Below are positions 33,994-57,662 of a stretch of 64,000 bases of DNA, in pieces. Both the position numbers and the translations under genes were made by a program. The first letter of the stretch is position 1, and each line of letters begins with the position of its first letter. The DNA lies in NCBI GenBank assembly GCA_944320725.1, contig CALUIM010000009.1, positions 62,001 through 126,000 of the forward strand, read 5' to 3'. The notes beneath the pieces were generated by a model. That model had not been told where the DNA came from. It ran no database searches and saw only the letters and a list, made by a program, of their open reading frames with translations. This stretch comes from an uncultured Coriobacteriaceae bacterium. GTDB lineage: Bacteria; Actinomycetota; Coriobacteriia; Coriobacteriales; Coriobacteriaceae.

Positions 33994-34004
33994 GATGCAC
34001 CCAC

Positions 34005-35576: not shown

Positions 35577-35667
35577 ATCCCGTACCGTCTCCCGCATCGC
35601 AGCTTGTAGGTTGGCGTGTACACTTAATCTTAGTGGAACATCGCGTTGCAAGCGGGGAGGATCGACC

Positions 35668-38600: not shown

Positions 38601-38799
38601 TTCATTGCAGGTGCGGGAGCTCGATGCAGCAACAGGGGCGTTTCACCTTATCGCATTGGTGCCTCAGGGGCTTGCCATATCCTCGGATGGCTCGAGGCTG
38701 CTTGCTTGCGGCAGCTGCCTCTATCGACAGCCGGTCTACTCATTAGAGGAGCTGGTGCAGATGGCCGAGGAGACCATCGCTGAGTATGAGGGCAGGTAG
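35668..38799 (+). CDS. TIR domain / transmembrane / beta-propeller protein
   Basis: A 1043-residue protein. Residues about 13-140 form a TIR domain (YEAFISYSHTEHDARIA, RVFRDEDELGAGGQLAAGL, SRWLVVVCSPAAAASPWVAREIE) with a candidate catalytic glutamate at 103; many bacterial TIR domains cleave NAD or make cyclic ADP-ribose. One membrane segment follows (MALAAVVALLCFGVVGGVVIS, from residue 191). The remaining about 800 residues are repetitive beta-strand sequence of PQQ/WD-like propellers (SAEGDLLSLLDSPERIRIYD and similar). TIR would be cytoplasmic and the propeller outside. The start is GTG 35668, seven bases after GGGGAGG; the longer frame upstream overlaps FHA1. It is likely the effector or sensor of the adjacent FHA/kinase genes. 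Confidence 0.88.
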   Translation: MGVQASAKGDGPTGYEAFISYSHTEHDARIAREVQRFIEEFSIPSALRARAGRARLGRVFRDEDELGAGGQLAAGLDEALRCSRWLVVVCSPAAAASPWVAREIETFISYHGRERVLAVLASGDQTTAFPSALVTSAGMPCATNEPVAADLRASVPRRRRRAELLRLAAPLVGCAYDELAQRRRTRARRRMALAAVVALLCFGVVGGVVISQRRQVDAVEERAEATRTRREALDVAATGDRIEALRLAVAGVPENGDAAQRADARAALAQTLGVYHPVLDTKPLYALHDVADASTLAVSAEGDLLSLLDSPERIRIYDVATGAVCLELDAGKLSFRGERQAFAPLQLLANGHLVTLLDADGVACFDARSGALAWQQYAVGNVHSIRLVAGGIPSGGDIVVVGWRDGACILSVLDGETGDIVRSVLLEDVGNEPTLFALTVRDDTAVIAANDRLVQVDLADGSVQSAPLAAGDVTGIVLDDTGVYTVSSDLASEAGTEDTWTGTATICAYERDGLGSRWSFGRTWEPYELASSISPFNADAQIGLVERSGALGEGVLPLAVGSQLLLIDVMTGAPKATFTAAAPIVHFDFAAGESGAEVLRATTLTGERCVADVGAGDARLASFDPYRFPCSVWHAEERTVGTSRYAIACSADDLKTILVYRDDPVVPQEFGVERIDVSGVATGASVSAHRDKVAIFDGADTITVLDGEEFDPVATIDLAQRGIELTDLNDALITFPDADSGLLLVCDAGAGAMPPRAWLFDALSGELVRSWVWPYAIDGIAYDGCTFSQERGGCVTLMFPAGGYLGLIDAGTLEVVQEFTITDTGITDVLAVSDDRLLIVFEGGATGLYDWESMERIDSALDGMTFISAPGTAQVAVAPDGATLAAISPEEGVTAVDVQSGDRLWGDAIEVAGGEYIAYSSDGNYVLVQDAAGVLRCYNAENGELVAQTEDTLDSIFAIDTAAGSKIFAVHTTDTATTSLQVRELDAATGAFHLIALVPQGLAISSDGSRLLACGSCLYRQPVYSLEELVQMAEETIAEYEGR

Positions 38800-38831
38800 C
38801 GAGGCGGCGTGCAGAGCCGCAGGTTGCGGGA

Positions 38832-40361: not shown

Positions 40362-40633
40362 GGCGATCCCGCTGCAGCACGTTTCCCCAACTGGCAGGGA
40401 TAACGATACCGCCAACGGTTTTACTCGGTTTCCCAATGGAGCTGGTTTGTAGGCGCCCGTATTCGTCGATCGCTATCTCGTTGAGCTGTGGAAATGATAT
40501 TGAGTGATGATGTTTGACAGAGGGCGATGAACGAGCTTTTGGCCAATGGGAGATGATTGGCAAATGTCACCTTTCCGTCGGTGGTTAACTGGCTCCAGGT
40601 ACACGCCTAGATCGTTTTGGTTGGAGTGCCGAT

Positions 40634-41101
40634 ATGGAAGCTATGATTGCGCTAATCGTCCTATTGTGGGGAGTCTGCTATTGGGTTCAGACGTTCTTTG
40701 GCTTCGGGACAGCGTACCGTTATGCCAAGCGAGGAGGCGATAACGGCATCGTTCTCTTCGGATGGCTTTGCGTCTTCTCGTTTTCCGCCATCGTTCCTGG
40801 TTTGGGGATTTACTTCTGGTACAAGACACGCAAAGAGGAACAAGAGACAAAGAAAAAGAAGGAATTCGGGGCTGCGACGCAGCCGCAGATCATCTATATC
40901 GCTCAAGCGGCTCCTCAGCAGACAACGTTGGTTGGTGAAATCGCGGCTTCCCCTGTTGCAGTTTCTGTCGAGCCCAAAGACTTGGGTGAGGCGAAACTTG
41001 TTTGTCCGAAATGCGGGCATGATCTACCTTCTGATAGCAGATTCTGCGAGTACTGCGGCGCTTCTCTGAGCGAGGGCAATCCGAGCGACGCGGAAGCGTG
41101 A
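40634..41101 (+). CDS. Membrane protein with C-terminal zinc ribbon
   Basis: A 155-residue protein with two membrane segments (ALIVLLWGVCYWVQTFFGFG and GIVLFGWLCVFSFSAIVPGLG), a basic stretch (YKTRKEEQETKKKKE) and a C-terminal double-CxxC zinc ribbon (CPKCGHDLPSDSRFCEYCGA). GGAG lies 7 bases before ATG 40634. It starts a run of small membrane genes up to 44416 in the same orientation. Zinc ribbons of this type mostly serve as protein-binding or structural modules. I do not assign a function. Upstream is a 200-base gap (40437-40633) that probably holds promoters for this gene and FHA copy 2. Confidence 0.7.
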   Translation: MEAMIALIVLLWGVCYWVQTFFGFGTAYRYAKRGGDNGIVLFGWLCVFSFSAIVPGLGIYFWYKTRKEEQETKKKKEFGAATQPQIIYIAQAAPQQTTLVGEIAASPVAVSVEPKDLGEAKLVCPKCGHDLPSDSRFCEYCGASLSEGNPSDAEA

Positions 41102-41107
41102 TGAGTC

Positions 41108-41821
41108 TTGTCGTCGCCTGGAACAGATGTATCGCATGTTGAGCGCAAGCTGCGGACGATGAACCTCGTATTGTTTGCGGTGTTGTCCTGCGCAATCGCG
41201 GCTGTGGGAGGCATGGCACTGTGGCACGGTGCCGCATCAGATCCTGTTGCCGGCGCTGACGGTGAAGTAGCCGGTGAGCACGAGGGGGTAATTCAAAGCG
41301 ACTTCGTATATCGGGAGATGACCTACGACATTAACCCTGGAAAAGATTATGCGGTCTATACGAACTATGCCTGCCCCCATTGTGCGGAGTTCTACTTTGG
41401 TGCTCAAGCAGAAGGAATTGAGTACACGAGCCGCATACTGCTCCTTGAAGATGCTGAAGGCGCTTTCTCCACGCAAAAGCTCGTCTCAGCGTACATGCTC
41501 AAGTTGTATCGGGATGATAGCGCGGCATATGCCGCTCTCGAAGCGGAGCTCTTCGGCTCGCAGGCCGAGTGGACGGTGCTCGATGAGCCGGATCTCCTTG
41601 CCTGGCTAAACGAGCATGCGGGTCGGCGTTGGGTAAGTAGCGACCTCGCATCTGAATCAGAAGACATCGTGCAGATCGAGCGCGATGCTCCTGTCGATCT
41701 TGAATACGTTCCCGGCGTCTTTCGCGACGGGGAACGTTGTGACGGCTTGATGTACGACCTGCTGGGGCAGGGCGCAGAGATACTGGCGTCTTCTGGGGAG
41801 GAGGCTTCAAATGAGGTGTAA
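41108..41821 (+). CDS. Membrane-anchored DsbA-like thioredoxin-fold protein
   Basis: A 237-residue protein with one N-terminal membrane anchor (MNLVLFAVLSCAIAAVGGMAL) and an extracytoplasmic thioredoxin fold: YAVYTNYACPHCAEFYF holds the CPHC active site, identical to that of DsbA. Later segments (FSTQKLVSAYMLKLYRDD, LVPGVF-like EYVPGVFRDG) fit a DsbA/DsbG-like domain, so disulfide formation outside the cell is likely. The start is uncertain: TTG 41108 keeps the positive ERKLRT stretch before the anchor, ATG 41159 does not, and neither has a good ribosome site. It overlaps the next gene by 11 bases. Confidence 0.75.
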   Translation: MSSPGTDVSHVERKLRTMNLVLFAVLSCAIAAVGGMALWHGAASDPVAGADGEVAGEHEGVIQSDFVYREMTYDINPGKDYAVYTNYACPHCAEFYFGAQAEGIEYTSRILLLEDAEGAFSTQKLVSAYMLKLYRDDSAAYAALEAELFGSQAEWTVLDEPDLLAWLNEHAGRRWVSSDLASESEDIVQIERDAPVDLEYVPGVFRDGERCDGLMYDLLGQGAEILASSGEEASNEV

Positions 41822-42689
41822 GAGCTGCAGAGAAGAGATCGGTAACGCGAAGACGTGCGAGAAGTGCGGAACACTTCAGGATGAGACCAGTGAGACTGTT
41901 ATAGAGGATGTGCTTGCCGCCGACTCGAACTCCGAGGAGGAGGGCAAACAAGCCGATGATGAACAGGACGCCGATAGGGTCCGTCGATTCTGTCGCAAGT
42001 GCGGTTCAGAGCTGGGCGATGATGGCATCTGCCCGAAGTGCGGAATTCTTCTTTATAAGGAAGAGGATAAGGAGGATAACGCCTCGGAAGAATCTAAGCA
42101 AAATGAGGACAGTGAGGGGAACAAGAAAAACTCGGCACTCCGCACCATCGCGATCAACCTCGGTATCACTGCGGCATTGATTTGCGCTATCGCGTTTGTT
42201 ATGTGGTATGGAGTGGATACGGCATACCGCTGGGAGAAAGTTGACGATCCTGGTACCTGGGAGACGTACGAGACGGGCTACTACATCATTACCATGGATG
42301 AGGTAAACCCCTGCTACGTTGGCCAGGATTGGACCGATTGCATCGCCGCTCATCAAGCGGAATACAACAGGGAGTGTACGAAGCCTATCGCTACGGGGAA
42401 CCGCAACAGAGCATCCGGAAGAGCGGCAGATGGTTTTGCTCCGTATCGTCAGATAGCATTGCGGCGGATGGGTCCTCGGAACCAAGAGCTGTGCAATCGC
42501 TACGCGGAAATGATTGCTGATATGCAAGCGGAGGATGAACCCGGATACTATGTGGCTTCGCTGGGAAGCTGGGGCCACCTTCACTCCACGCCGGAAACGG
42601 AGCGCCAGCTCGTTGGTCGTGAAACGCATGATGCCGTCTGCTACTACGGTTTCCTTGGCGAGTGTCCAGAGGACGAGGAGGACGAGTGA
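41811..42689 (+). CDS. Double zinc-ribbon membrane protein
   Basis: A 292-residue protein. Two zinc ribbons lie at the N-terminus (CKSCREEIGNAKTCEKCG and, after a 40-residue acidic linker, CRKCGSELGDDGICPKCG). A charged linker and one membrane segment follow (IAINLGITAALICAIAFVMWYG), then an extracytoplasmic domain of about 150 residues with several Cys (NPCYVGQDWTDC, AVCYYGFLGECPEDEE). The Cys-rich outer domain next to a DsbA-like gene suggests disulfide-bonded substrate and enzyme, which is inference. GGGGAGGAGG precedes ATG 41811, and the gene overlaps the preceding one. No family recognised. Confidence 0.7.
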   Translation: MRCKSCREEIGNAKTCEKCGTLQDETSETVIEDVLAADSNSEEEGKQADDEQDADRVRRFCRKCGSELGDDGICPKCGILLYKEEDKEDNASEESKQNEDSEGNKKNSALRTIAINLGITAALICAIAFVMWYGVDTAYRWEKVDDPGTWETYETGYYIITMDEVNPCYVGQDWTDCIAAHQAEYNRECTKPIATGNRNRASGRAADGFAPYRQIALRRMGPRNQELCNRYAEMIADMQAEDEPGYYVASLGSWGHLHSTPETERQLVGRETHDAVCYYGFLGECPEDEEDE

Positions 42690-42694
42690 CCGCC

Positions 42695-43594
42695 ATGTTT
42701 TGCGAATACTGCGGCAAGGAAATCGGTGAGGCGAAATTCTGCCGTCATTGAGGGAGAAAGGTTACCCCGCCACCCAAGATCAAGCCATGGAAGCAGTCGA
42801 TTCCATGCAGCATCTTGGGCATAGTTTGTTCAGCGCTGGCGAGCCTCTATTTTCAGATGAGCGGGTTCGATGGGGCGCTGCTTCTCGTGTTTTGGGCGAT
42901 GCTGGCTGTCGCTTGGTTTGTTATCGCTCTGCCGAATAGTTTTGCAAATCATAAAACCAACCTTGAGCTTGCCCAGAAGGAGCGTTGCGATTATGAGCCG
43001 AAAACAAAATGGGTCTCCTTCTGTAACTGCCTTTTTGGAGGACTATTCGGCTTGCTGCTAAACAGAGGACTTGAACGAGCTTCGCTTGGTGTGACGCGTA
43101 AGGTGCTCGCGGGTTTATCTGTAGCGAGCGCTTTGCTCACGTTGGCCTTGGGTTTCTCGAATGGCTTCCTTTATGTCGCGCCGTTTGAACACTTCGCCTT
43201 TCGGACGACCGCGACGATGCGGCGCGAAGTGAACGATGAAAGCATAACGTATTACGATACTTTGCGAGGTACGACCGAAATCATCATCTTCGAGCCGGCT
43301 GAGGGAGGGATAGGCTTTGGCCCCGATCAGATGGGCGATTGGTACGAGGACTTTGGTTGGATTCAAACGGACGATATCTCGTATGCGGGCGATGTTTCCA
43401 CGGGAACGAGCGTTTATGCTGTGGCTGCGTCATTTGCTGATGAAAGCGGATATTACGATGCGATCGTGGTAGCGCATGTGGAAGGCACGTTCAATCGCGT
43501 TTACGAGATACGGCTCTTTTTCCAAGGCGGTGATGTTTCGAGCTGGCGGCAAACGACAGCGGATGTGCTGGGTGACTTCCGGCCATTTGCTTAG
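42695..43594 (+). pseudogene. Zinc-ribbon membrane protein interrupted by in-frame TGA
   Basis: The frame runs from ATG 42695 to the stop at 43594 with one internal TGA at 42749-42751. Before it: FCEYCGKEIGEAKFCRH; after it: GRKVTPPPKIKPW, so the TGA stands exactly where the fourth zinc-binding Cys (TGC or TGT) of the ribbon should be. The rest has membrane segments (ALLLVFWAMLAVAWFVIALP, and one near VLAGLSVASALLTLALGF) and an outer domain of about 140 residues. The continued in-frame coding sense after the TGA suggests a recent nonsense mutation or a sequencing error. Selenocysteine is unlikely because no convincing SECIS hairpin follows. It lies 5 bases after the preceding gene. Confidence 0.75.
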
Positions 43595-43657
43595 CCGTAG
43601 CGGGATTATCGCCTACAGTCACTGAATGTGCGTGCTGATGCAAATCGGAGGACAAGC

Positions 43658-44122
43658 ATGGAAAACGCTCAAGATAAACGACCACTCATCGCCATCGGCA
43701 CCGTCGTGGCTCTCATCGTCTGTTTATTCATTCCCTACAACCATTGGGACACGGACATCGTGAGCGGGCGGCTGGTGAGCGAGGGTACGATCGTCGAGCG
43801 CAGCGATGATGCCATTGCGGTGAGGCTCTATACCATGACAGCGTCGAGCAGCATGATCGAGACCAACACGTTTCTCGTGCTCCAAGGATATATTCCCGAT
43901 GATGCCTATACGGGGCAGCGCGTGCGCATCGGCTACAGCTCGTCGGATGGTCTCTACGCGAATCCAGATCAGACGGTGCAGGTTTCTTATTATGTCGATG
44001 GTAACTTGCTGACCGGGCTGATCCTGGACTGGCTCATTCCTTTCCAGAGCACCCGGACCGATCTGCAGATTGCCGACATCCAGTCGGACGGTTCGTTGCT
44101 GGCGTACCATAGGGCGAATTAG
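43658..44122 (+). CDS. Small membrane-anchored hypothetical protein
   Basis: A 154-residue protein with one N-terminal membrane segment (LIAIGTVVALIVCLFIPY) followed by an extracytoplasmic beta-rich domain (SGRLVSEGTIVERSDDAIAVRL, GQRVRIGYSSSDGLYA). A second weakly hydrophobic stretch (GLILDWLIPF) lies near the C-terminus. ATG 43658 follows GGAGG at a good distance; an in-frame start at 43628 lacks one. It is in the same run as the zinc-ribbon proteins, 63 bases after the interrupted gene. No family recognised. Confidence 0.65.
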   Translation: MENAQDKRPLIAIGTVVALIVCLFIPYNHWDTDIVSGRLVSEGTIVERSDDAIAVRLYTMTASSSMIETNTFLVLQGYIPDDAYTGQRVRIGYSSSDGLYANPDQTVQVSYYVDGNLLTGLILDWLIPFQSTRTDLQIADIQSDGSLLAYHRAN

Positions 44123-44146
44123 TATCTATCCTGGGAGGGGTTCTTC

Positions 44147-44416
44147 ATGGCAATCAAACCCACGGTGACTCCTCGGAATGATCGCAACAAGACACCTGCA
44201 GTCGAATGTGAGGCTGGTGAGTTTGCGCATGTGTTCATCAAGAGCGGCGAGGACAATCAAGTCGCGATAGGTAACGATTTGCTTGAGGGGCAATCCTGCG
44301 ACTTGGAACAACGCGCAGCGGTTCTCGAAGCGGAGACGCACAGACCTAAAGGCGAGATAATGTTTAGCGTCAGCGAGGCGTGTGCCATGTTGAAGAATCG
44401 TCGCGCAGGGGTATGA
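44147..44416 (+). CDS. Small hypothetical protein
   Basis: An 89-residue protein with no recognised domain. It has many charged residues, no membrane segment, and a central beta-like stretch (FAHVFIKSGEDNQVAIGND). GGGAGGGG lies before ATG 44147, and it follows the preceding gene by 24 bases, so translation is plausible. It may be the last gene of the 40.6-44.4 kb run or a degraded remnant. Confidence 0.45.
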   Translation: MAIKPTVTPRNDRNKTPAVECEAGEFAHVFIKSGEDNQVAIGNDLLEGQSCDLEQRAAVLEAETHRPKGEIMFSVSEACAMLKNRRAGV

Positions 44417-44879
44417 GCTGCAGTTGCGGCTGAGAACTGAGAAGAGCGATGAGATCGGTTGACCGTGCTATCGCGTTATCGCTTCGACTGGGCTGTCCTC
44501 GAATGGACCTATGCCGCATGCACAATTTCGTTAGCGGAAGGGCACTTTCGACGATGTCCTTGGCGTGCGCGGAGTATTTGGTGGATACGAATTCCAGCCG
44601 CCGTCTGTGTAACTGTTCCTGCAAAAGGGGCTGCGCCCATGCGAGCCGTGATTTCGGTAATCGGACATCCTATTCACCCCTTTGCTCTTGGTTGCCAAAA
44701 TGCAACTCATTGCGGATTGGGTTTGGGAGGACATTTCCCAAAATGCTGCGAGATGAACGCATGCCGTGTTCCTTGAGACGAATCTTCAGCGTCATTGGGA
44801 AATGACACTTGTTTCCCGAAAGTATGATTCGGTCATGAAGCCTAGAGCAACGCCAACGGCGGTAACGGAGGGAATCGTA
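44417..44879. other. Intergenic region with no recognised gene
   Basis: Overlapping frames here lack ribosome sites and family features. The GGAGGGAAT just before 44880 belongs to the next gene. A partial inverted repeat (TGGGAGGACATTTCCCA near 44725) is visible. The region probably holds the promoter of the 44.9-49.4 kb operon. Confidence 0.5.
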
Positions 44880-45542
44880 ATGGGGAAGATCGTGGGATGG
44901 ACCTCTATTGATAGCAAAACTACTTATGTTGATAAAGATGCAGCGACAGAGTCACAACTGACCCAGATCGACACTGAATCATTCGAACTAAAATCAGAAG
45001 ATGGTGATAGTCAGGAATTCGTGCCAACCGTTTCCTGCGATGCACCTGATGTGGATGCACAAGCGGCTTTCAACGACGATGGTTATGGCGATGAAGCTCT
45101 CCGCGCTGACGTCGAGGTTATTGAAGATGCGGATTTGTGCGGCGTGGAAATTGATGAAGCAGTCGCAAACGAACTTTTGGATATCCTCCAGGCAAATTTC
45201 TCAGATCAGATTGTTGTCCAAGAGGGCATTCATGGTTCGGTGGAGTCTTCAAAAACGGAACGCATTTGCAAGGCGATTGGCAATCTGCAGCCTCTCTTCC
45301 ATAGAGATTCTTATGGGAAATACTGCGATATCACTGATGCATCTGACAAGATGGTCCGCGCGCTTATCTTAGCTGCAGATTCCTCGGAGTTGGATTTCTT
45401 TGCCATTCTAGAAAAGCTTCAGGAAGTTGTCCGCAGACAAGGCGAAATAGCGGGTCAATACACCAGTACTCTTGAATCGCCCAATCTCAATAGCCTCATT
45501 GAATTCGTTGGATCTTTAGCGCTGGACAACGCGTGTGATTAG
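44880..45542 (+). CDS. Acidic hypothetical protein, first gene of TerY-P operon
   Basis: A 220-residue protein with no recognised family. The first 90 residues are acidic and low in hydrophobics (DTESFELKSEDGDSQEF, DDGYGDEALRADVEVIED). The rest looks helical (VANELLDILQANFSDQ, SSKTERICKAIGNLQPLF, LDFFAILEKLQEVVRRQGEIAGQY). ATG 44880 is chosen because GGAGGGAAT stands just upstream; a longer frame from 44766 has no ribosome site. It is 2 bases before the PIN gene and heads a tightly packed five-gene operon with a kinase, vWA protein and PP2C phosphatase. A substrate or adaptor of that kinase/phosphatase pair is an inference. Confidence 0.65.
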   Translation: MGKIVGWTSIDSKTTYVDKDAATESQLTQIDTESFELKSEDGDSQEFVPTVSCDAPDVDAQAAFNDDGYGDEALRADVEVIEDADLCGVEIDEAVANELLDILQANFSDQIVVQEGIHGSVESSKTERICKAIGNLQPLFHRDSYGKYCDITDASDKMVRALILAADSSELDFFAILEKLQEVVRRQGEIAGQYTSTLESPNLNSLIEFVGSLALDNACD

Positions 45543-45544
45543 TC

Positions 45545-46183
45545 ATGTCTGTGAGCGATACATATATTTTCATCGACACATGTTCGCTTCTTGTTTCCTG
45601 TTGGGATGTGTCCCGAAATAATACGGTTATCTATAACCAGGAAAAAGATAAGCAGTTCTGGGATGGCGAAATGCCCACCCTCTCCCGGGTTGGAACCATC
45701 ATTCTCGCGAAGCGAAATTACGACGAGCTCGAAAAGTTGTCGCATGTGCGTAACGACCCTAATCGTCCGCAGCTGGGAGAACGTTGCTCCCAAGTGCTTT
45801 CGCGCATAGCTCCCTTGCTGTCGAATAAGACCATTTCGATAGTGGGCGACCCCAACGACCCCTTTGCCGACGCCATTCTTCTTTCGGTTGCGCTCAAATT
45901 TCGGACTCAAAAGAACCTGCTGTTCCTAACGCAGGATAGGGCGCTCGCCTTCGATTTAATCGCTATTTCCAACTTCCAGTCTGTACGACCGAGAAATGGA
46001 TACGAGCTCAAGGTTCGTCGACTCAGTGAGAAGGGTTCCATCGAGCGTTGGCATTTCAATGACATGTCGGGTGGATGGCACGCGAAGTCGCATCCAAAGA
46101 CGAAGTCAAAATCAATCTTGCCAGACAAGACCAGACAAGGATCTAATCAGTCGCCTGAGCATGAGTGGTGGCGATTGTCATGA
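45545..46183 (+). CDS. PIN-domain protein in TerY-P operon
   Basis: A 212-residue PIN-like nuclease domain protein. The acidic active-site pattern is visible: TYIFIDTCSLL (first Asp), DPNDPFADAILLSVALKF (second cluster) and LLFLTQDRALAFDL (third Asp). A basic C-terminal tail of about 50 residues follows (HAKSHPKTKSKSILPDK). PIN domains cut RNA. Unlike VapC toxins it has no antitoxin partner but sits in an operon with signalling genes, so it may be the effector of the kinase/phosphatase switch. It starts 2 bases after the preceding gene and overlaps the next by ATGA. Confidence 0.8.
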   Translation: MSVSDTYIFIDTCSLLVSCWDVSRNNTVIYNQEKDKQFWDGEMPTLSRVGTIILAKRNYDELEKLSHVRNDPNRPQLGERCSQVLSRIAPLLSNKTISIVGDPNDPFADAILLSVALKFRTQKNLLFLTQDRALAFDLIAISNFQSVRPRNGYELKVRRLSEKGSIERWHFNDMSGGWHAKSHPKTKSKSILPDKTRQGSNQSPEHEWWRLS

Positions 46184-47880
46184 CGGTACCACGTCAACAA
46201 GAAAATGTCGTATCAGCTGGAAGGCAAATCGCTCTCCGAGGGTCCTTGCCCGGTGAAGGCGTGCAAAAAGGTCAAGCGGTTTCTATAGATGTGACTGCAG
46301 ACGACGGTAGCCACAGCAAATCGATTAGACTGACGAAGAAAATCGGCGAGGGCGGCGAAGGTTCGGTTTTTGAGACGAGCCTTGGAAAAACCTCTGACTA
46401 CGTTGCGAAAATATACTCGCGCAACAAGCTTATCGATACAAAAATCGAGAAGCTCAAGCTGATGATGTCAAAATCAATTGCGCTTCGCGGCCTGTGTTTT
46501 CCTGTTGCTTTAATCAAAAACGAGCAAGGGGAGCCCGTTGGGTTTCTTATGCCTCGTGCTAAAGGCGTTGAACTTGGCAAATCGATATTCATGCCGAAGT
46601 TGTTGCAGCAGAAATTTCCTTCGTGGACACGTCGAGACACGATTCAGCTTTGCATAACAATCCTAGAGAAGATCAAGTATCTGAACAGTAGGGGGATTAT
46701 TCTCGGGGACATTAACGGCCAAAACATACTTGTCGTTTCTCCGACAGAGGCCTATCTCGTCGATTGCGACAGCTATCAAATCGGCAAGTATCCATGTCCG
46801 GCGGGCACGGTTCATTTCACGCCGCCTGAGGCTCAAGGGAAGGACTACAGCACCTTTTTGCGCACGCAGGCGATGGAGAACTTTGCTATTGCCACGTTGC
46901 TCTTCATGATTATGCTTCCAGGGAAATCGCCATATGCCTCGGTGGGCGGGGCGAGCCCTGCTGAAAACATCCGAAACGGTGCTTTTGTTTATGAGAGTAA
47001 TGACAACTCCAAGGTGCCGCCTGGAAAATGGGGATTCATCTGGAGCCACATGTCATTCAGGACACGGGAGGCGTTTGTTGATACCTTTCGCAGGGGCGGA
47101 GAGCACTTTGCGCCTGAGAAACGCATGAATGCCCAGCAGTGGCTTGAGATTTTCAAAGCATATCAGCATGGAATTGACCATATGTTGGCTCGAGACCCTA
47201 TGGCTATGGACATCTTTCCAACGCGTCCGAAAATGCGCGAATGTAAACAATGCGGCAAGATGTATGTCCCTGATCCATTGCATTACCTGCCGTTTTGTCC
47301 AGAATGTGCTGGGAAAAAGGGGAGTGCTCCCTACCTTACTCCTCGTGAAATCCAGCTTAATGCTGCGCATGCGGCAAAAAAGGAGATGGAGCGCTTTGAG
47401 AGGCAGAGGCAGCGTGAGGCGCAGCGAGAAGTAGAAAGCCAGCGAAACGCAGCCCATCGAAGATGGTTGGGTGAGGTCTGGAAGAAATATCCGTGCAAGA
47501 ATCAAAAATGTCATAACACGATTACGCTTTACAACCGCGATCAGGCGAGGTTTTACGGCAATAGACGACTTCCGGAATACTGCAATGAATGTTGGCAGGA
47601 TACGCCATGCAAAAAGTGCGGCTATGTTGCTGCGAAATGGATGCATGACGAACGCGGCGGCCTTTGCAGAAGGTGCTACGAGGAAGAACAGAGGAACAAG
47701 AGGCTTGTAGCTCAGCAAAAATTCCAGCAAACGCGCCGGCCAAAGCGGCCAGTTCAGAACAGCAAACCTCCAACTCAAAACAGCAGATCGAAGAACGATG
47801 AAATTGGATGCTGGGGTTACCTTGTCTGTGCCTGGGCAATCGTCATCGTTCTAGCGATGTTATCAAATTGCAGCTCATAG
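46180..47880 (+). CDS. TerY-P type protein kinase with zinc ribbons and C-terminal membrane segment
   Basis: A 566-residue kinase. It has a glycine loop IGEGGEGSVFE (from residue 55), ATP Lys77 in YVAKIYS, catalytic loop GIILGDINGQNIL (Asp177, Asn182; HRD is LGD) and VDCDSYQIG in place of DFG (Asp195). The stretch YPCPAGTVHFTPPEAQG is characteristic of the kinase of the TerY-P triad. The C-terminal 230 residues hold three Cys clusters (CKQCG with CPEC; CKNQKC with CNEC; CKKCG with CRRC), a charged coil between them and a final membrane segment (LVCAWAIVIVLAMLSN). ATG 46180 overlaps the PIN stop as ATGA. It would phosphorylate partners, with the PP2C two genes down reversing this. Confidence 0.88.
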   Translation: MTVPRQQENVVSAGRQIALRGSLPGEGVQKGQAVSIDVTADDGSHSKSIRLTKKIGEGGEGSVFETSLGKTSDYVAKIYSRNKLIDTKIEKLKLMMSKSIALRGLCFPVALIKNEQGEPVGFLMPRAKGVELGKSIFMPKLLQQKFPSWTRRDTIQLCITILEKIKYLNSRGIILGDINGQNILVVSPTEAYLVDCDSYQIGKYPCPAGTVHFTPPEAQGKDYSTFLRTQAMENFAIATLLFMIMLPGKSPYASVGGASPAENIRNGAFVYESNDNSKVPPGKWGFIWSHMSFRTREAFVDTFRRGGEHFAPEKRMNAQQWLEIFKAYQHGIDHMLARDPMAMDIFPTRPKMRECKQCGKMYVPDPLHYLPFCPECAGKKGSAPYLTPREIQLNAAHAAKKEMERFERQRQREAQREVESQRNAAHRRWLGEVWKKYPCKNQKCHNTITLYNRDQARFYGNRRLPEYCNECWQDTPCKKCGYVAAKWMHDERGGLCRRCYEEEQRNKRLVAQQKFQQTRRPKRPVQNSKPPTQNSRSKNDEIGCWGYLVCAWAIVIVLAMLSNCSS

Positions 47881-47904
47881 CGTTCGGATGGAAAGGATTG
47901 AACA

Positions 47905-48591
47905 ATGAACGAGCTAGCTTTGATCGAGATGGAAGATCTTTTCGAGAACCCGACCCCACGAGTTCCCGTTGCGCTCTGCCTAGATTGCTCGGGCTCCATG
48001 ATGGGCGAACCTATTCAAGAGCTTAATGAGGGCGTGAAGACCTTCTATCAAGCTATCAACGACGATGAAATCGCTCGATTCTCTGCAGAAATCTGCATCG
48101 TGACATTCGGCCCGGTGTCGCTCGAGGCCGACTTTGCAACGCTTGATACGCGCCCGCAGCCTCCAATTCTCAGCGCATCGGGAAATACTCCCATGGGCGA
48201 GGCGGTTGAGCTCGCTATCAACAGCTTGGAAAAGCGCAAGGCTGCTTACAAGGCAAGCGGTGTCGATTATTATCAGCCTTGGCTTGTGTTGATGACCGAT
48301 GGCCATCCTTATGGCGGTAGCCAAGTAGTTCTTGATCGACAAATCGCTCGCGTTGCCACAATGGCCGAATCACGCAAGCTCACGGTTTTCCCAATCGGAA
48401 TTGGGGATGAGGCTGATATGAGTACCCTCGCAAGGTTCTCTCCGGGCCGTTCGCCCCTTAGGCTCCAGGGTCTCAAGTTCTCGGAGTTTTTCTCGTGGCT
48501 GAGTAAGTCTGTGTCGCGTGTTTCGCAATCTACGCCTGGCGATAAGGTCACCCTCGATGTAGAGGGTATTCGTGGCTGGGCAGAACTGTAA
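47905..48591 (+). CDS. TerY-like von Willebrand factor A protein
   Basis: A 228-residue vWA protein of the TerY type, close to the length of tellurium-resistance TerY. The metal-ion site is complete: CLDCSGSMMG (DxSxS), the Thr in SGNTPMGEA and LMTDGHP (Asp). Such proteins bind a divalent metal and a partner protein. GAAAGGA lies before ATG 47905. It is third from last in the operon, between the kinase (24 bases upstream) and the PP2C gene (25 bases downstream), the same three-gene set known as the TerY-P triad. FPIGIGDEADM is a typical TerY segment. Confidence 0.92.
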   Translation: MNELALIEMEDLFENPTPRVPVALCLDCSGSMMGEPIQELNEGVKTFYQAINDDEIARFSAEICIVTFGPVSLEADFATLDTRPQPPILSASGNTPMGEAVELAINSLEKRKAAYKASGVDYYQPWLVLMTDGHPYGGSQVVLDRQIARVATMAESRKLTVFPIGIGDEADMSTLARFSPGRSPLRLQGLKFSEFFSWLSKSVSRVSQSTPGDKVTLDVEGIRGWAEL

Positions 48592-48616
48592 CGCCGCTTA
48601 ATTCATTTGGAGAGTC

Positions 48617-49387
48617 ATGAAACGAGTAGTGTGGAAGCGAGCTTGCGCTGCCGTGCGGGGCAGGTCTCATCAAATTGACCAAACGCCGTGTCAGGATGGC
48701 GTGGCAACAACGTATCGGCGCAACGTCAGCGTAATCGCGCTGTCAGATGGTGCAGGATCAGCCAGCCATTCTCATTTTGGATCTGAGGTTTGCGCTCGAA
48801 GCCTCTGCGCTATCCTTTGTCGACATTTCGATGAGATATGGCACATGGATCAACGGGATGCAAAGTGCAAGATCGTTTCCACGCTACATGGTCGGCTGGG
48901 CTGCAAAGCGAGGGAGCTGAACGTTGATGTTTCTGCGCTCGCTGCGACTCTTCTTGCGGTTGCGGTCAAGAAAAATCGTTACATAGCGATTCATCTTGGG
49001 GACGGGGTTATCGGCGCCGAGGTGGCTGCTGCGGATGGTAGCCGCGAGCTCGTAACCCTTAGTGCACCTGAAAATGGTGAACATTCGAACGAAACATTCT
49101 TTGTTACGTCCGGCACGGCAGAAGCGCATATGAGCATGTTGCTAGGGAGAGTTCGCGAATGCGACCGCAGCGAGATTGCGGGGTTCATTCTCATGTCTGA
49201 CGGGCCTGAAGCTGCGTTGTATCGAAAGGCGGATAGTGTCCTTGCCCCAGCTTGTACAAAGTTGTTGGACTCGGCTCGTGACCTAAGGAAGGTTGATTAT
49301 CGGCACGGATTACAAGGAACGCTGGAGCTTATCGCTCGATCTAAGACGCACGACGACTGTTCGATAGCAGTCATGGTGCACGTATAA
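48617..49387 (+). CDS. PP2C-family protein phosphatase of TerY-P triad
   Basis: A 256-residue PP2C-like Ser/Thr phosphatase. Metal-binding motifs: QDGVATTY and ALSDGAGSASHSHFG (Asp), ATLLAVAV with IHLGDGVIGAE (Asp), ILMSDGPE, and THDDCSIAVMV at the end. GGAGAG precedes ATG 48617. It is the last gene of the kinase/vWA/phosphatase operon and would reverse the phosphorylation made by the kinase at 46180-47880. The short length is typical of this subgroup. No membrane segment. Confidence 0.9.
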   Translation: MKRVVWKRACAAVRGRSHQIDQTPCQDGVATTYRRNVSVIALSDGAGSASHSHFGSEVCARSLCAILCRHFDEIWHMDQRDAKCKIVSTLHGRLGCKARELNVDVSALAATLLAVAVKKNRYIAIHLGDGVIGAEVAAADGSRELVTLSAPENGEHSNETFFVTSGTAEAHMSMLLGRVRECDRSEIAGFILMSDGPEAALYRKADSVLAPACTKLLDSARDLRKVDYRHGLQGTLELIARSKTHDDCSIAVMVHV

Positions 49388-49481
49388 TGGGCTTAACGGG
49401 GTCTTCGCGCTGAAGATGCTGGGCCTCTTGTTTGGAAATCTGTGCATGCGCGATTGAGATGCCCATGCACGTGCGACGGGC

Positions 49482-49756
49482 GTGTCTGGCGCGCATCCTG
49501 TCAGGTACTATCATGATGACACGAATGTAGAGGTTGATGCCGTCATTGAGCTTATAGATGGTCATTGGGGAGCATTCGAGATCAAGCTGAGTTACGCTAA
49601 GGTTGACGACGTTGCGAAGAGTTTGCGGCGCATGCGCAGAAACTTCTCAAGGATGCGAACGGCAGGGTTTCCGAACTGTCTTTCCTGGGGGTGCTGGTTG
49701 GCGTCAGCGAGGCAGCGTGTCGTCGGTCGGATGGCGTGATCGTGATCCCCATCTGA
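49482..49756 (+). pseudogene. DUF4143 ATPase C-terminal remnant, frameshifted
   Basis: The fragment begins with VSGAHPVRYYHDDTNVEVDAV and continues ELIDGHWGAFEIKL, as in the C-terminal domain of DUF4143 AAA proteins. Near 49640 the sense moves to another frame, giving QKLLKDANGRVSELSFLGVL and ending VIVIPI at the TGA at 49754-49756. The ATPase part is missing. It is a decayed gene, typical of mobile or defence regions, and the rest of 49388-49811 holds no other gene that I can support. Confidence 0.7.
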
Positions 49757-49811
49757 ACCCTGGGCGCATGATTGTTGCACGTAACGATGATTGTTGGGGG
49801 ACGGCGGATGA

Positions 49812-49835
49812 TTGTATACTGTATACAGTATACAA
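49812..49835 (+). promoter_or_regulatory. Perfect 24-bp palindrome, TA operator
   Basis: Exact palindrome built of TTGTATACTGTA and its complement, 24 bases before ATG 49859. It contains TATACT, a possible -10, so binding would block transcription. It is the expected place for autoregulation by the RelB-like antitoxin. Confidence 0.75.
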
Positions 49836-49858
49836 AAATGAATTGCTTGGGAGTTATC

Positions 49859-50149
49859 ATGGCGACGGCGGTGATTTCCGGCAGGGTTGATGAGCGGGTA
49901 AAGGCCCGCGCGGAGGTGTTCATACGCGCAGCTGGGCTTTCGGCGGGCGATGTGATCCGCATGGTATGGGAACATATCGCTCAAACAGGCGAGGTGCCCG
50001 ATGCGCAGGATGCAGCCGAGAGCGCTCCGGTTGCTAAAGATCCTCTGATGCGGCTTGGCGAGCTCCGAGTAAATTTCGGGGCTTCTGATGAGCTCGTTAA
50101 TCTAACCGATTCGCAGATGCGAGAGATGATTGCGAGCCGACATGCGTAA
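49859..50149 (+). CDS. RelB/DinJ-type antitoxin
   Basis: A 96-residue ribbon-helix-helix antitoxin. The N-terminal AVISGRVDERVKARAEVFIRAAGLSAGDVIRMVWE matches the RelB/DinJ DNA-binding domain; the C-terminal half would wrap the toxin. ATG 49859 follows GGGAG; longer in-frame starts lie before the operator. It overlaps the PIN toxin by 8 bases, a normal toxin-antitoxin layout, although RelB with a PIN toxin is a less usual pairing than RelB with RelE. Confidence 0.85.
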   Translation: MATAVISGRVDERVKARAEVFIRAAGLSAGDVIRMVWEHIAQTGEVPDAQDAAESAPVAKDPLMRLGELRVNFGASDELVNLTDSQMREMIASRHA

Positions 50150-50573
50150 CTTCAATGCTCGCCGTTTGCTGCTCGACACGAATGTCCTATTGGATGCCTT
50201 GGTTGAAGGAAGGCCGGAGTCCACGGAAGCATGGGAGGTTCTCAAGCGCTGCAACGGTGGTGGCGATATGGGGCTCGTCACATCTGGCTCGCTTAAGGAT
50301 GCGTATTATGTGCTGAGCCGAGGAGGACGGGAGGCCGCCGCACGTGAAGCCATTGAGCTGCTCATGGAGCTTCTCGTCATCGCGCCGGTAGGAGCCGAAG
50401 AATGCGAGCTTTCCATGCGGTCGGGCGAACCCGATTTCGAGGACGGCCTTGTGCGCGCATGTGCCGAGCTCAACGATGTTGCCTTCATCCTCACGCGTGA
50501 TGACCGCGCATTCCGTACATCGCGTGTGCGGTCTCTTACATGCGCGGAATACCTAGAGTTGTTTGCTGAGTAG
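50142..50573 (+). CDS. PIN-domain (VapC-like) toxin
   Basis: A 143-residue PIN toxin, a Mg-dependent endoribonuclease that cuts tRNA or rRNA. The active-site acidic residues are in LLLDTNVLLDAL, the central Glu in ATSGSLKD-type region, EPDFEDGLVRACAEL and FILTRDDRAF. ATG 50142 overlaps the antitoxin end; TTG 50130 is an alternative. It forms a pair with the RelB-like gene just upstream. Confidence 0.85.
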   Translation: MRNFNARRLLLDTNVLLDALVEGRPESTEAWEVLKRCNGGGDMGLVTSGSLKDAYYVLSRGGREAAAREAIELLMELLVIAPVGAEECELSMRSGEPDFEDGLVRACAELNDVAFILTRDDRAFRTSRVRSLTCAEYLELFAE

Positions 50574-50611
50574 ATGGCAACTTCCTTGTATGAGATTTCA
50601 AGGAGACGGAA

Positions 50612-50821
50612 ATGGTGCGCGGAAGAACGAGTCACGGTTCTATGCAGTCTCGGGTGAACGTGCGGATCGATACAGATTTGAAAACGGCCGGTGATGCTGC
50701 CCTCGCTGCCGCGGGGTTCACACCTACGCAAGCGGTGCGCATGCTGTGGTCGCTCGCCGTGCGCTATCAAGATGAGCCGGAAAAACTTCGTGCGATGCTC
50801 CACGCATCATCTAAGAGGTAG
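50612..50821 (+). CDS. Orphan DinJ/RelB-like antitoxin
   Basis: A 69-residue ribbon-helix-helix protein (QSRVNVRIDTDLKTAGDAALAAAGFTPTQAVRMLWSLAV). AAGGAGACGG lies before ATG 50612. No toxin follows directly: the next gene is a separate Phd/YefM antitoxin with its own promoter, so this is an orphan, or it supports the pair upstream. Confidence 0.7.
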   Translation: MVRGRTSHGSMQSRVNVRIDTDLKTAGDAALAAAGFTPTQAVRMLWSLAVRYQDEPEKLRAMLHASSKR

Positions 50822-50840
50822 GGGCGCTATTCTTTCGTGG

Positions 50841-50846
50841 TATAAT
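50841..50846 (+). promoter_or_regulatory. Consensus -10 TATAAT of Phd/ParE pair
   Basis: Perfect TATAAT, 35 bases before ATG 50881, with TGAGGA between. Confidence 0.6.
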
Positions 50847-50880
50847 AAGGCCATGATTTCGTACGAGTGAGGATGCTGCT

Positions 50881-51150
50881 ATGGCGGTCTGCGTTCCCGT
50901 AAGAGATATGAAAGATACCGCGGCGTTTGCCAGGCTCGTGAGGGAGTCTCCTGAGCCAATAACCGTCACCAAGAACGGATACAGCGAATTTGTGGTCATG
51001 CGGAGTGAGGATTATGACCTCCTGCGGGAGGAAGTGGCAAAGGCTCGCCTCGTCCGCGTGCTTGCCGATGCCGATAAGGCGTATGAATCGGGTGAATACG
51101 TCGACGGCGCTTCGTTCATCTCCGATGTGAGGGAACGATATGGACTCTAG
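50881..51150 (+). CDS. Phd/YefM-type antitoxin
   Basis: An 89-residue antitoxin: VPVRDMKDTAAFARLVRESPEPITVTKNGYSEFVVMRSEDYDLL is the Phd/YefM DNA-binding domain, followed by a toxin-binding tail (DKAYESGEYVDGASFISDVRERYG). TGAGGA lies before ATG 50881. The stop overlaps the toxin start by 11 bases. Confidence 0.88.
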   Translation: MAVCVPVRDMKDTAAFARLVRESPEPITVTKNGYSEFVVMRSEDYDLLREEVAKARLVRVLADADKAYESGEYVDGASFISDVRERYGL

Positions 51151-51445
51151 CTACATTCTGCTTCCGCGTGCGCAAGAAGACTTCGAGGGCATTGTTCGTT
51201 ATTTATCTGTCGAGCTTGCGAGTCCAGCTGCAGCGCGGCGTTTCGTTGATGAATTCGAGAAGGGGATCACGCTCGTCTGCAAACACCCTGAGCTGTATCC
51301 GCTCAGTCGCATGCCTGAGGTCGCGGCACGCGGCTATCGAGCGATGCCTGTCATGAGGTACATCGCGCTCTATGCGATCCGTGACGGTAAGATTATCGTC
51401 GCTCATATCTTTCATTCGTTGCAGGACTACGCGCGCTACGTGTGA
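51140..51445 (+). CDS. RelE/ParE-family toxin
   Basis: A 101-residue toxin of the RelE/ParE fold: LLPRAQEDFEGIVRYLSVELASPAAARRFVDEFEKGI, then HPELYPLSRMPEVAARGYRAMPVMRYIALYAI. ParE poisons DNA gyrase and RelE cuts mRNA; the sequence does not decide which. It overlaps the Phd/YefM antitoxin, its partner, and is convergent with the helicase gene (12 bases apart). Confidence 0.88.
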   Translation: MDSSYILLPRAQEDFEGIVRYLSVELASPAAARRFVDEFEKGITLVCKHPELYPLSRMPEVAARGYRAMPVMRYIALYAIRDGKIIVAHIFHSLQDYARYV

Positions 51446-51457
51446 GCGCCTGCTTCG

Positions 51458-53827
51458 CTACACCGTTTTGCGCCACTCCCGTACGCGCTCGCGCATGCCT
51501 TCGATGTCGAGGACGCCTTCGGCGAAGCCCTTGCGCACGAGCTCGGCGGGCAGGAACTCGTCGTACTTCTCGAAATAGGGCACCTCTCCGGGATAGACGA
51601 GTTCCACGGGGTCGAAGTCGGCATCGGCCGCCTCGGCTACCACCTGGAAGAACGTCTCGGCATCCGCGTTCATCTGGAACTGCATGAAGTAGGGTCGGCT
51701 CGAATCGAGGCCGCGCAGCCCCAGCTCACCGGCGCACTTGATCTTGAGCAACCGTTCAAGTGCCAAAAACGCGTAGCTGCCAAGCCAAGGCAGCAACACC
51801 CAGGTCTTGCCGCCCAGGTTGATGAGAGGCTCAGTTGCCGCGCCCGAGAGCTCGGCCGTACGACGCGCTTGGCGAAGACGCGCGCGGGCATTGTCCAGCA
51901 GGTACGGATAGGTCTCGTGGCTCCCCAGCACGCGGCGCATGCGCTCCAGGATATGCGTGTGGATGTCGCCGGGACAGTCTCCAAAGTAGGCGGGCACACG
52001 CCCCTTGACCTGCGTGGCATACACGAGATGGCGCTTCCAATCGACCTCCTCGACCACCCAGCAGGCGCCGGCGATGGCAATGCGCTCGCCGGGCGGAGGC
52101 GGGTTCACAATGGTGCCGAGTTCGGCCGATTCGCTCCGTACGGTGAACTCCTCGTTTTCCTGGAACACCGCGTAGAACTTGAAGCTGTTGGTATAGCGCT
52201 CGCCGGCGAGGCCCACGATGAGGCCGCCGCCCTCGGTGAGCTGGATGTGTTCGGTCTCGATAAGGTGGCGCAAGAGGATGCGGAAGTCGTCCGCCGAGAT
52301 GCGGTGGAAATACGAGAGCGTGAGCACGCGCGCCGCGAGCTCGGCGGGCGTGAGCTCGCCCGTGCTGGCAAGGGTTGCCATGGTCTGGTGATAGAGCAGG
52401 CTGTAGGGTAGCCGCTCTGTGCGCGGCGGCTCGACCCACTTCTCCTCGCGATAAAGCTGTACGAGCGCGATGCCCTGTAAGAGCTTCCAGGGGATGGTCT
52501 CGGGCATGGTGGTGCGCGGCTCGGGGCTCTCCTCGCGCATCACGAAGTGCATCTCGGGCGGCTCGCCACGCCGGCCCGTGCGGCCCATGCGCTGCAAAAA
52601 GCTCGACACGGTGAACGGTGCATCAATTTGGAACGCGCGCTCGAGCCGGCCGATGTCAATGCCCAGCTCGAGCGTGGCGGTGGTTACGGTGGTGTCGAGT
52701 CGCTCGTCATCGCGCATGACCTCCTCGGCAGATTCGCGAATGGCACTCGAGAGATTGCCGTGGTGGATGAGAAACCGATCCGGCTCGTGTTGCACCTCGC
52801 AATAGGCGCGCAACATCGTGCAGACTGCCTCCGCCTCTTCGCGCGAGTTCACGAAGACAAGGCACTTGGCGCCGCGCGTGCGCTCAAAGATGTAGCCAAT
52901 GCCGGGGTCGGCGTTCTCGGGCGCACGATCAGTGGGGGCAAGAAGCTCGGTTTGCGTGTCGTGTTCGAGGTCCGCGTTGGCATCGGCGTCCTCGTCAGGC
53001 AACGCGTTTGCGTCCACGCGCTCAACGGCAACCACGTCCGCTTCGATGGTGCCGTCGGCGCGTGCAATTCCGATGCCTGCGTCGCCGGCTGGCGGGAAGT
53101 CGCTCGCACGCTCGGTTGCTTGGGGGCCGGTGATGTAGAAGTGCTCCATGGAGAGGCGCCAGGTGCGGCGCGGCTCCTCGAAGCGCGGGATAATGCAGCC
53201 GCGTCCGGTGCCGGCGGCGAGGAAGGCGCCGGTGCGTTCGGGGTCGCCGATGGTGGCGGAGAGGCCGATGCGCCGCGGGTTCACGCCTGCCATGCGGGAG
53301 AGGCGCTCGATGAGGCAGAGCGTCTGGCCGCCGCGGTCGCCGCGCAAGAGCGAATGCACCTCGTCGATCACCACATAGCGCAGGTCGCAAAAGAGGCGCG
53401 GTACCTGCGCATGGCGGTGCATGAGCAGGGCCTCGAGCGATTCGGGCGTAATCTGCAGGATGCCGGAAGGATGCTGCATGAGCTTGCGCTTGTGCGACTG
53501 CGCCACGTCGCCATGCCAGCGCCAAACGGGAATATCAGCCTCGATGCAAAGGTCTTCAAGGCGCATGAACTGGTCGTTGATGAGCGCTTTGAGTGGGCCG
53601 ATATAGATGGCACCGATGCTTGCCGGCGGGTCCTCCCAGAACTCGGTGAGGATGGGGAAGAACGCGGCCTCCGTTTTGCCGGACGCAGTCTGCGCGGTGA
53701 GCAGCACGTGCTCATCGGTGTCGAAGATGGCCTCTGCGGCGGCAACCTGGATGGAGCGCAGGCCCTCCCAATCGTGGTCGTAGATGAAGTCCTGCACGAA
53801 GGGCGCATAGCGATCGAAGATACCCAT
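51458..53827 (-). CDS. SF2 helicase of the TerB_N/ATPase/helicase module
   Basis: A 789-residue DEAD/DEAH-type superfamily 2 helicase. It has motif I TAQTASGKTEAAFFP, Ia GPLKALINDQF, DEVH box YVVIDEVHSLLRG, motif III LSATIGDP, motif IV-VI ITTATLELGIDIGRL-type region and FLQRMGRTGRRGE. An acidic insert (about residues 255-310) lies between the two lobes and a C-terminal region follows (VVEEVDWKRHLVYATQVKGR). It resembles Lhr-type helicases. ATG 53827 follows AGGAACG; longer frames lack a site. It is the last of three genes (TerB_N protein, DUF2791 ATPase, helicase) with 8-base spacing to the ATPase. Confidence 0.9.
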   Translation of the reverse strand: MGIFDRYAPFVQDFIYDHDWEGLRSIQVAAAEAIFDTDEHVLLTAQTASGKTEAAFFPILTEFWEDPPASIGAIYIGPLKALINDQFMRLEDLCIEADIPVWRWHGDVAQSHKRKLMQHPSGILQITPESLEALLMHRHAQVPRLFCDLRYVVIDEVHSLLRGDRGGQTLCLIERLSRMAGVNPRRIGLSATIGDPERTGAFLAAGTGRGCIIPRFEEPRRTWRLSMEHFYITGPQATERASDFPPAGDAGIGIARADGTIEADVVAVERVDANALPDEDADANADLEHDTQTELLAPTDRAPENADPGIGYIFERTRGAKCLVFVNSREEAEAVCTMLRAYCEVQHEPDRFLIHHGNLSSAIRESAEEVMRDDERLDTTVTTATLELGIDIGRLERAFQIDAPFTVSSFLQRMGRTGRRGEPPEMHFVMREESPEPRTTMPETIPWKLLQGIALVQLYREEKWVEPPRTERLPYSLLYHQTMATLASTGELTPAELAARVLTLSYFHRISADDFRILLRHLIETEHIQLTEGGGLIVGLAGERYTNSFKFYAVFQENEEFTVRSESAELGTIVNPPPPGERIAIAGACWVVEEVDWKRHLVYATQVKGRVPAYFGDCPGDIHTHILERMRRVLGSHETYPYLLDNARARLRQARRTAELSGAATEPLINLGGKTWVLLPWLGSYAFLALERLLKIKCAGELGLRGLDSSRPYFMQFQMNADAETFFQVVAEAADADFDPVELVYPGEVPYFEKYDEFLPAELVRKGFAEGVLDIEGMRERVREWRKTV

Positions 53828-53835
53828 GGTCGTTC

Positions 53836-55203
53836 CTACAGCGTGAATTCGGCGAAGTCGGTTGGGTTGCGTGGGGCAGATCCAAGAGCAACCGTTGTTG
53901 TGGACGGGCCGGATGTCGCGGAGTCTCCGTTGCCGCATGCCGCCTGTGTGCCACCCACGTCGTGCAGCAGCGCGGCGATATCGGCGTCGGGGTTTTGGTA
54001 GGCGATGTCCAACAGCTCGATGAAGTCGCGGATGACCTCGCGCGGCGTGAGGTGCGTATCGGCACCTACGCGCCCGAACTCGATCTTGAGGAAGTCGACC
54101 AGATTCGCTTCGGTGAGGCGGGCGGAATAGCCGTAATAGCCAGCGTGGATTTGCTGCAGCTTCTCGATGAGCACTAAGAGCTCTTCGTAAGTGAGCGGGT
54201 GCAGATGGATGATGGGCGCGAGCATATCGCGCATGCCCTCGCGGGCAAAGTGGCCCTGCGTGAGGCGGCTGCGCAACGCCTCGTAGCTAAAGACGCCGCG
54301 CCGGCGGTCCTCGATGGACTGTGGTGTGCCGCCCATGATGACACCCAGATGGTGTGCCTTGCCCTGCAGCGTATCGTTGTACATCGTGAGAATCTTCTCG
54401 TAGTTGTACTGGCGCGTGATGGCGTTGGGGATTTTGAAGAGGTTCACGAGCTCGTCGATAAGCACAAGCAGACCCTTGTAGCCCGCACCCGTGAGGAACT
54501 GCGCAAAGAGCTTCACGTAGTCGTACCAGTCGTCGTCGCCGATGATCGTTGTGGTGCTCAGCTCGGCGCGGGCCTCGCTCTTGGTGCGATACTCGCCGCG
54601 CAGCCACTTGATAACGAGGCTCTTGGTCTCGTCGTCCCCCTCGAGCGAAGCGGTGCGATAGCGGCGGAGCATGCGGGTGAAGTCGAAGCCGTGAACGAGC
54701 TCCTCGAGCGGTGCGAGGTGCATCTCGAGCTGCTCTTCCTCCGCCGCGCGGGCGCCTGCGGGGTCTGCCGAGGCGGGCGATTGCGTGCTTGCGACCCAGC
54801 GGTCGAGGATGAGTGTGAGCGCGCCGCCCTCGGGTCGTGTTTTGGTGGAGAGGTTGCGGATGAGCTCGCGGTACGTGGCGAGTCCCTGCCCCTGGCCGCC
54901 TTGCAGGCGGCGCTCGGGGGAGAGATCGGCATCGGCTACCACGAAGTTCTCACCCATGGCATGTGTGCGGATGGTCTGCAAGAGGAAGCTCTTGCCCGCG
55001 CCGTAGCGGCCAACGAGAAAGCGGAACGAGGCGCCGCCGTCGGCGATGAGGGAAAGGTCGGTAAGCAGCGCTCGAATCTCAGCCTCGCGGCCCACCGTGA
55101 TATAAGGCAGCCCAATGCGCGGCACCACGCCGCCTTTGAGCGAGTTCAAGATGACGGCCGCGACGCGCTTGGGTACGCGCGGTGCGTTTGCTGTGTTGTT
55201 CAT
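53836..55203 (-). CDS. P-loop ATPase, BREX/BrxD-like (DUF2791)
   Basis: A 455-residue ATPase. Walker A is FLVGRYGAGKSFLLQ and Walker B GLLVLIDELVNLF. The regions VGREAEIRALL and MYNDTLQGKAHHLGVIMGGTPQ match the DUF2791 family used as BREX system ATP-binding proteins and in Ter-associated operons. A long helical middle part (HLAPLEELVHGFDFTRMLRRY) and a C-terminal domain (HPLTYEELLVLIEKLQQIHAGYYG) follow. ATG 55203 overlaps the stop of the TerB_N gene (ATGA). It is expected to couple ATP use to DNA loading or translocation with the adjacent helicase. Confidence 0.88.
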   Translation of the reverse strand: MNNTANAPRVPKRVAAVILNSLKGGVVPRIGLPYITVGREAEIRALLTDLSLIADGGASFRFLVGRYGAGKSFLLQTIRTHAMGENFVVADADLSPERRLQGGQGQGLATYRELIRNLSTKTRPEGGALTLILDRWVASTQSPASADPAGARAAEEEQLEMHLAPLEELVHGFDFTRMLRRYRTASLEGDDETKSLVIKWLRGEYRTKSEARAELSTTTIIGDDDWYDYVKLFAQFLTGAGYKGLLVLIDELVNLFKIPNAITRQYNYEKILTMYNDTLQGKAHHLGVIMGGTPQSIEDRRRGVFSYEALRSRLTQGHFAREGMRDMLAPIIHLHPLTYEELLVLIEKLQQIHAGYYGYSARLTEANLVDFLKIEFGRVGADTHLTPREVIRDFIELLDIAYQNPDADIAALLHDVGGTQAACGNGDSATSGPSTTTVALGSAPRNPTDFAEFTL

Positions 55204-57110: not shown

Positions 57111-57154
57111 GTGCTCACCTCCCGCCTTCTCGCGTGCATACTGGGTAATCATTC

Positions 57155-57658: not shown

Positions 57659-57662
57659 GAGC

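Follow-up and report, generated by a model that had tools for sequence, protein, structure and literature searches.

A TerY-P operon subtype with a PIN-fold protein as its likely effector in an uncultured Coriobacteriaceae bacterium

TerY-P systems shield P. aeruginosa from phages (PMC10889362), activity against T7-like phages has been reported (PMC7699616), and TerY-P is frequent in CoCoNuT systems, for which RNA is the predicted target (PMC11090510). None of the triad's three proteins (kinase, phosphatase and vWA protein), however, offers an obvious killing step. Here we describe an operon of an uncultured Coriobacteriaceae bacterium in which a triad of this type is preceded by the gene of a PIN-fold protein, and ask what this additional protein may do.

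The operon occupies positions 44880-49387 on the forward strand of the window, i.e. the whole 64,000-nt stretch that was analysed (assembly GCA_944320725.1, contig CALUIM010000009.1, positions 62,001-126,000 of the forward strand). ORFs were recomputed, and five uninterrupted genes were found in the order acidic protein (44880-45542; 220 aa, pI 4.1), PIN-fold nuclease (45545-46183; 212 aa, pI 9.3), Ser/Thr kinase whose C-terminal part bears zinc ribbons and a hydrophobic anchor (46180-47880; 566 aa, pI 9.5), TerY-type vWA protein (47905-48591; 228 aa, pI 4.6) and PP2C phosphatase (48617-49387; 256 aa, pI 8.1). They are separated by 2, -4 (an ATGA overlap), 24 and 25 bases, reproducing the spacings given in a preliminary description of this DNA. 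The same description had assigned the last three genes to the TerY-P triad. This assignment was borne out and also holds against other genomes: adjacent genes on the same strand encode a MIDAS vWA protein, a metal-binding PP2C and a zinc-ribbon Ser/Thr kinase.

The kinase showed a match to Pfam Pkinase just under the curated cut-off (2.9e-7), with the catalytic residues K77, D177, N182 and D195 all in place. Zinc ribbons had been ascribed to it earlier on the basis of the motifs DCDS and PPEAQG. These motifs belong to the activation segment, but ribbons do exist as later Cys pairs (355/358-373/376, 468/471 and 477/480-496/499). The C-terminal anchor was recognised by hydropathy. CFI-box domains (NF041770) were found at the C-terminus of kinases in L004 (7480-9258), L007 (9923-12232) and L008 (9758-12340), while a hydrophobic anchor takes this place in most of the remaining Coriobacteriia kinases of the family and the L033 kinase has a C-terminal DUF6273. 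The vWA protein matched Pfam VWA (4.7e-10) and carries the MIDAS motif DCSGS, and the phosphatase matched PP2C_2 (PF13672; 3.1e-38) with its metal-binding DG/DD motifs present. PADLOC, run without a positive control, returned no TerY-P call for the operon genes. The anti-phage TerY-P of Gao et al. (2020) reportedly has a kinase with a C-terminal OB-fold and confers phage protection. Among the neighbour proteins scanned, no CoCoNuT marker (McrB-type GTPase CnuB with CnuC, CnuH/CnuE) was detected.

Neither the PIN protein nor the acidic protein had any Pfam or NCBIfam match. However, membership of the former in the PIN superfamily, which is defined by the fold and a conserved acidic active site, is supported by a profile link, fold matches and invariant acids. 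A profile built from stand-alone PIN relatives only recovered the PIN part of proteins in which PIN is fused to the kinase (1.9e-21 and 8.6e-14), and the PIN parts of all four such fusions exceed the cut-off of PF13638 (PIN_4). The AlphaFold model, of low confidence (pLDDT 56), matched mainly solved PIN/FEN-type nucleases (Utp24, SMG6/EST1A, MJ1533 and AF0591). The active-site acids D11, E61, D105/D109 and D131 are present and invariant in seven Coriobacteriia relatives. The tail of the protein is variable and rich in S, T and K, and ends in an invariant WW motif. Since this motif is retained in L031, where the PIN and kinase genes do not overlap, it is probably a feature of the protein rather than a by-product of the overlap with the kinase start, a reading that rests on this one locus. 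RNA is the presumed substrate of the PIN protein.

The acidic family combines an MGKIVGW-like motif conserved at the N-terminus, a variable acidic middle and a C-terminal domain, also conserved, that spans about 90 residues and was modelled as helical with low confidence. Because of the MGKIVGW motif, the gene start at 44880 was preferred over an upstream GTG at 44766. Homologues directly upstream of PIN in related loci share both ends, and all the intact copies have a pI of 4.05-4.8. Gene position and charge hint at an antitoxin role, and an inhibitor of PIN is a tentative proposal, to which we give slightly less than even chances. In two loci, L005 (3531-4106) and L032 (10748-11314), the acidic gene is directly preceded by a leucine-rich-repeat-like gene, and these two genes are related to each other; no similar gene was found in the window.

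The preliminary description had regarded the PIN and acidic genes as an extension of the triad, a view that depends on their conservation beside triads in related genomes. A first search of 100 relatives uncovered PIN in one other genome, in a locus of the same five genes, and a scan of GTDB contigs added loci in one Slackia and one Collinsella MAG. The kinase and PIN families co-occur in the same seven of 397 Coriobacteriales genomes, one-to-one in eight loci. In all eight, PIN lies directly upstream of the kinase and the acidic gene immediately upstream as well, so that both genes flank the triad throughout. The acidic family was found at these loci and in one more fragment, which abuts the end of a short contig so that any downstream genes would be lost. 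Frameshifts that may be assembly errors affect both the acidic and the PIN gene in L005, the Slackia MAG, and the kinase gene in L006. Ten further Coriobacteriales triads have the canonical order vWA-PP2C-kinase and lack this PIN family (PIN-type versus canonical triads, Fisher's exact test with relatedness ignored: p = 2.3e-5), as do six plasmid triads including E. coli YegL-PphC-YegI. Since canonical triads persist without it, PIN may be an add-on. One canonical triad is found in the genome studied here, on another contig (C14; L079, 5517-9008), where it adjoins an RyR-kinase and a TIR-propeller-like gene.

Beyond the eight Coriobacteriales loci, the neighbourhood search for triads with PIN found PIN-kinase fusions in four other lineages. 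In a Lysinibacillus plasmid, Fusobacterium vincentii, a Paenarthrobacter conjugative plasmid and a viral contig with phage-like genes, the PIN domain makes up the N-terminus of the kinase, and vWA and PP2C come next. Sampling outside Actinomycetota comprised plasmid records and viral contigs. Neither the viral nor the Lysinibacillus fusion protein, used as queries against viral contigs, found new fusions, nor did the viral one against phage records, and the PIN protein alone had no match in viral contigs. The operon kinase belongs to the same family as the fusions and is more distantly related to E. coli YegI. A single branch sets the PIN-linked sequences apart from canonical triads in the tree of kinases (94/90) as well as in that of vWA proteins (97/95), which is good but not decisive support for a PIN-linked kinase group. 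Among the relatives that lack PIN, the closest is a canonical-order triad on a Photobacterium plasmid. Because the fused forms branch outside the Coriobacteriia forms, a fused ancestor that was later split in Coriobacteriia would be the simpler reading of these few sequences. Near the operon of the viral contig is a DRT type VI-like reverse transcriptase (L018, 10671-11621), and the gene just upstream of the Fusobacterium fusion (L007, 8970-9878) encodes an HTH protein in which a second PIN domain is present but apparently degraded.

The fusion in several lineages and the strict linkage make it very likely that PIN and the triad form a functional unit. In Paenarthrobacter, the fusion gene and an excisionase-type HTH gene share 4 bp, and homologues of this HTH gene lie immediately before a stand-alone PIN gene at four of the five plasmid loci inspected. 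This relationship suggests that the PIN-kinase unit may have a toxin-antitoxin origin. The acidic gene of Coriobacteriia occupies the same upstream position as the HTH gene before PIN. However, the Lysinibacillus and viral fusions have no obvious antitoxin gene directly upstream. Therefore, the acidic protein need not be an antitoxin, and direct control by the kinase may suffice.

We propose that the operon represents a TerY-P subtype with its own PIN-fold RNase effector under a phosphorylation switch, probably acting against phages, and regard this overall reading as more likely than not. The preliminary description had suggested that PIN could be the effector of the switch. This is consistent with the comparison across genomes, and we consider it likely that PIN is an effector under kinase control, although both that role and the phospho-switching itself are inferred. 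A defensive role of the operon appears somewhat less assured, if still probable. In the resting cell, a complex with the acidic protein, docking to the kinase or the two together would keep the basic PIN protein inactive. The kinase would be tethered at the membrane through its C-terminus, with the zinc ribbons as sensor, and the MIDAS vWA protein would scaffold the switch. Kinase and PP2C would then set the phosphorylation state of PIN (perhaps of its S/T-rich tail), of the acidic protein or of the kinase itself. A stress signal, most plausibly phage infection, would tip the balance between kinase and phosphatase, PIN would be released or activated, and its cutting of RNA would stop growth or phage replication. 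In its most specific form, a phosphorylation-gated toxin in which the acidic inhibitor holds the PIN RNase and the dedicated kinase/phosphatase/vWA triad switches it, the scheme is a tentative one, with chances that fall a little short of even.

The operon is carried by an accessory insert (32425-51457) that separates capA from Shango and is delimited by the capA-SngC spacing in same-genus genomes: the distance between the two ORFs is about 0.13 kb in one of these genomes (G003) versus about 19 kb here, and a close relative (G001) has only a C-terminal RyR-kinase remnant left after capA. The insert contains, in order, RyR-kinase, FHA-like, TIR-propeller, FHA-like, zinc-ribbon and thioredoxin-like genes, the five-gene operon and small toxin-antitoxin-like genes, and is context rather than part of the operon itself. 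The RyR-domain kinase-like gene, the two paralogous FHA-like genes and the TIR-propeller gene form a signalling block (32425-40436). On the flanks of the operon and Shango (49482-51445 and 57209-57754) are a DUF4143 ATPase gene fragment and several small genes of toxin-antitoxin-like type (PIN_3, Phd/RelE-like). A complete Shango locus (SngC, SngB and SngA by PADLOC; 51458-57152) follows the insert and is conserved at this site in same-genus genomes. We rejected its proximity as a sign of joint function, as same-genus genomes that lack the triad have Shango at this site too. The window had been described as free of terD/terC-type genes. TerD is indeed absent genome-wide, but a TerB_N/TerB_C protein is present in the window, namely SngA (55200-57152), which belongs to the Shango locus also present in close relatives without the triad.

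Conceivably, the operon is only one part of a larger immune locus, whose main effector arm would be the TIR-propeller, FHA-like and RyR-kinase proteins, with PIN as a secondary one. Genes of these kinds adjoin PIN-type triads (in the window, L004, L030 and L031) and canonical triads as well (L075, L077, L078 and L079). However, none was found by similarity in the stretches around L005, L032 and L033, and the plasmid and viral PIN-kinase forms have none annotated. The operon can therefore apparently stand alone, and we consider the larger locus improbable. Even less probable, by a little, is that the acidic and PIN genes are an ordinary toxin-antitoxin pair that stabilises the element and travels passively with the triad. 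The PIN fold is common among toxins, the pairing of an acidic with a basic protein and the order of their genes are like those of toxin-antitoxin pairs, and HTH-PIN pairs related to the Paenarthrobacter front gene occur alone. Passive hitchhiking is nevertheless hard to reconcile with PIN-kinase fusions in several phyla, the invariable gene order, the 4-bp overlap with the kinase and the co-grouping in trees, and this PIN family was never found without a triad in the 397 genomes.

A different role altogether, in which PIN is a kinase-linked RNase that reshapes the transcriptome (Ire1-like) in a reversible metal or envelope stress response rather than a defence effector, is unlikely but deserves more weight than either of these. 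The hydrophobic anchor and the zinc ribbons suggest sensing, thioredoxin-like and zinc-ribbon genes precede the operon both in the window and in L030, TerY-P has been proposed to be a metal-sensing phosphorylation switch (as cited in PMC11090510), and no role is assigned to the YegI/PphC pair of E. coli (PMC13232886). The spread of PIN-triads is patchy and mobile, with plasmids, a viral contig and an accessory chromosomal insert as carriers, which suits defence or addiction better, and related triads are anti-phage. We retain the TerY-P subtype with a PIN-fold effector as the preferred reading, in which phage would be the trigger and phosphorylation would control PIN.

The operon shares with known TerY-P triads a C-terminal zinc-ribbon kinase, a TerY vWA protein and a PP2C encoded side by side on one strand. 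It differs in its order (PIN/kinase-vWA-PP2C versus vWA-PP2C-kinase), in the added or fused PIN RNase and, in Coriobacteriia, in the extra acidic gene. In E. coli, PphC dephosphorylates YegI (PMC13232886). The vWA protein, PP2C and membrane kinase of YegL-PphC-YegI are homologous to those described here, but that system has another order and no PIN, and its kinase is about 26% identical over the shared part. The toxin of the TglT/TakA system is not a PIN protein. This type VII toxin-antitoxin system likewise pairs a kinase with a toxin, and phosphorylation of TglT by TakA is a precedent for a kinase neutralising a toxin (PMC7641770), but TakA itself is the antitoxin there and has no phosphatase or vWA partner. 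HTH-PIN toxin-antitoxin pairs also have a small gene directly upstream of a PIN nuclease, and the Paenarthrobacter PIN-kinase retains such an HTH gene. In the operon, however, the toxin is coupled or fused to a kinase, and the front gene of Coriobacteriia encodes an acidic protein with no recognised DNA-binding domain. Ire1 and RNase L join a kinase domain to an RNase domain and are comparable in the way they work only, as they are eukaryotic and their RNase is C-terminal and of an unrelated fold.

We found no paper in the open literature that names both TerY-P and a PIN domain, though an earlier mention in the founding 2012 paper on Ter systems (Anantharaman et al.) is possible. A kinase coupled or fused to a nuclease is a candidate for the output of TerY-P and makes the question of how it stops phages testable with single-residue mutants. 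If the proposal is true, reversible phosphorylation controls a PIN-type RNase in bacteria, and TerY-P immunity would include forms with a built-in RNA-cutting effector, comparable in bacteria to Ire1 and other kinase-RNase sensors. The operon may thus encode a phosphorylation-controlled nuclease that shuts down cells during phage attack.
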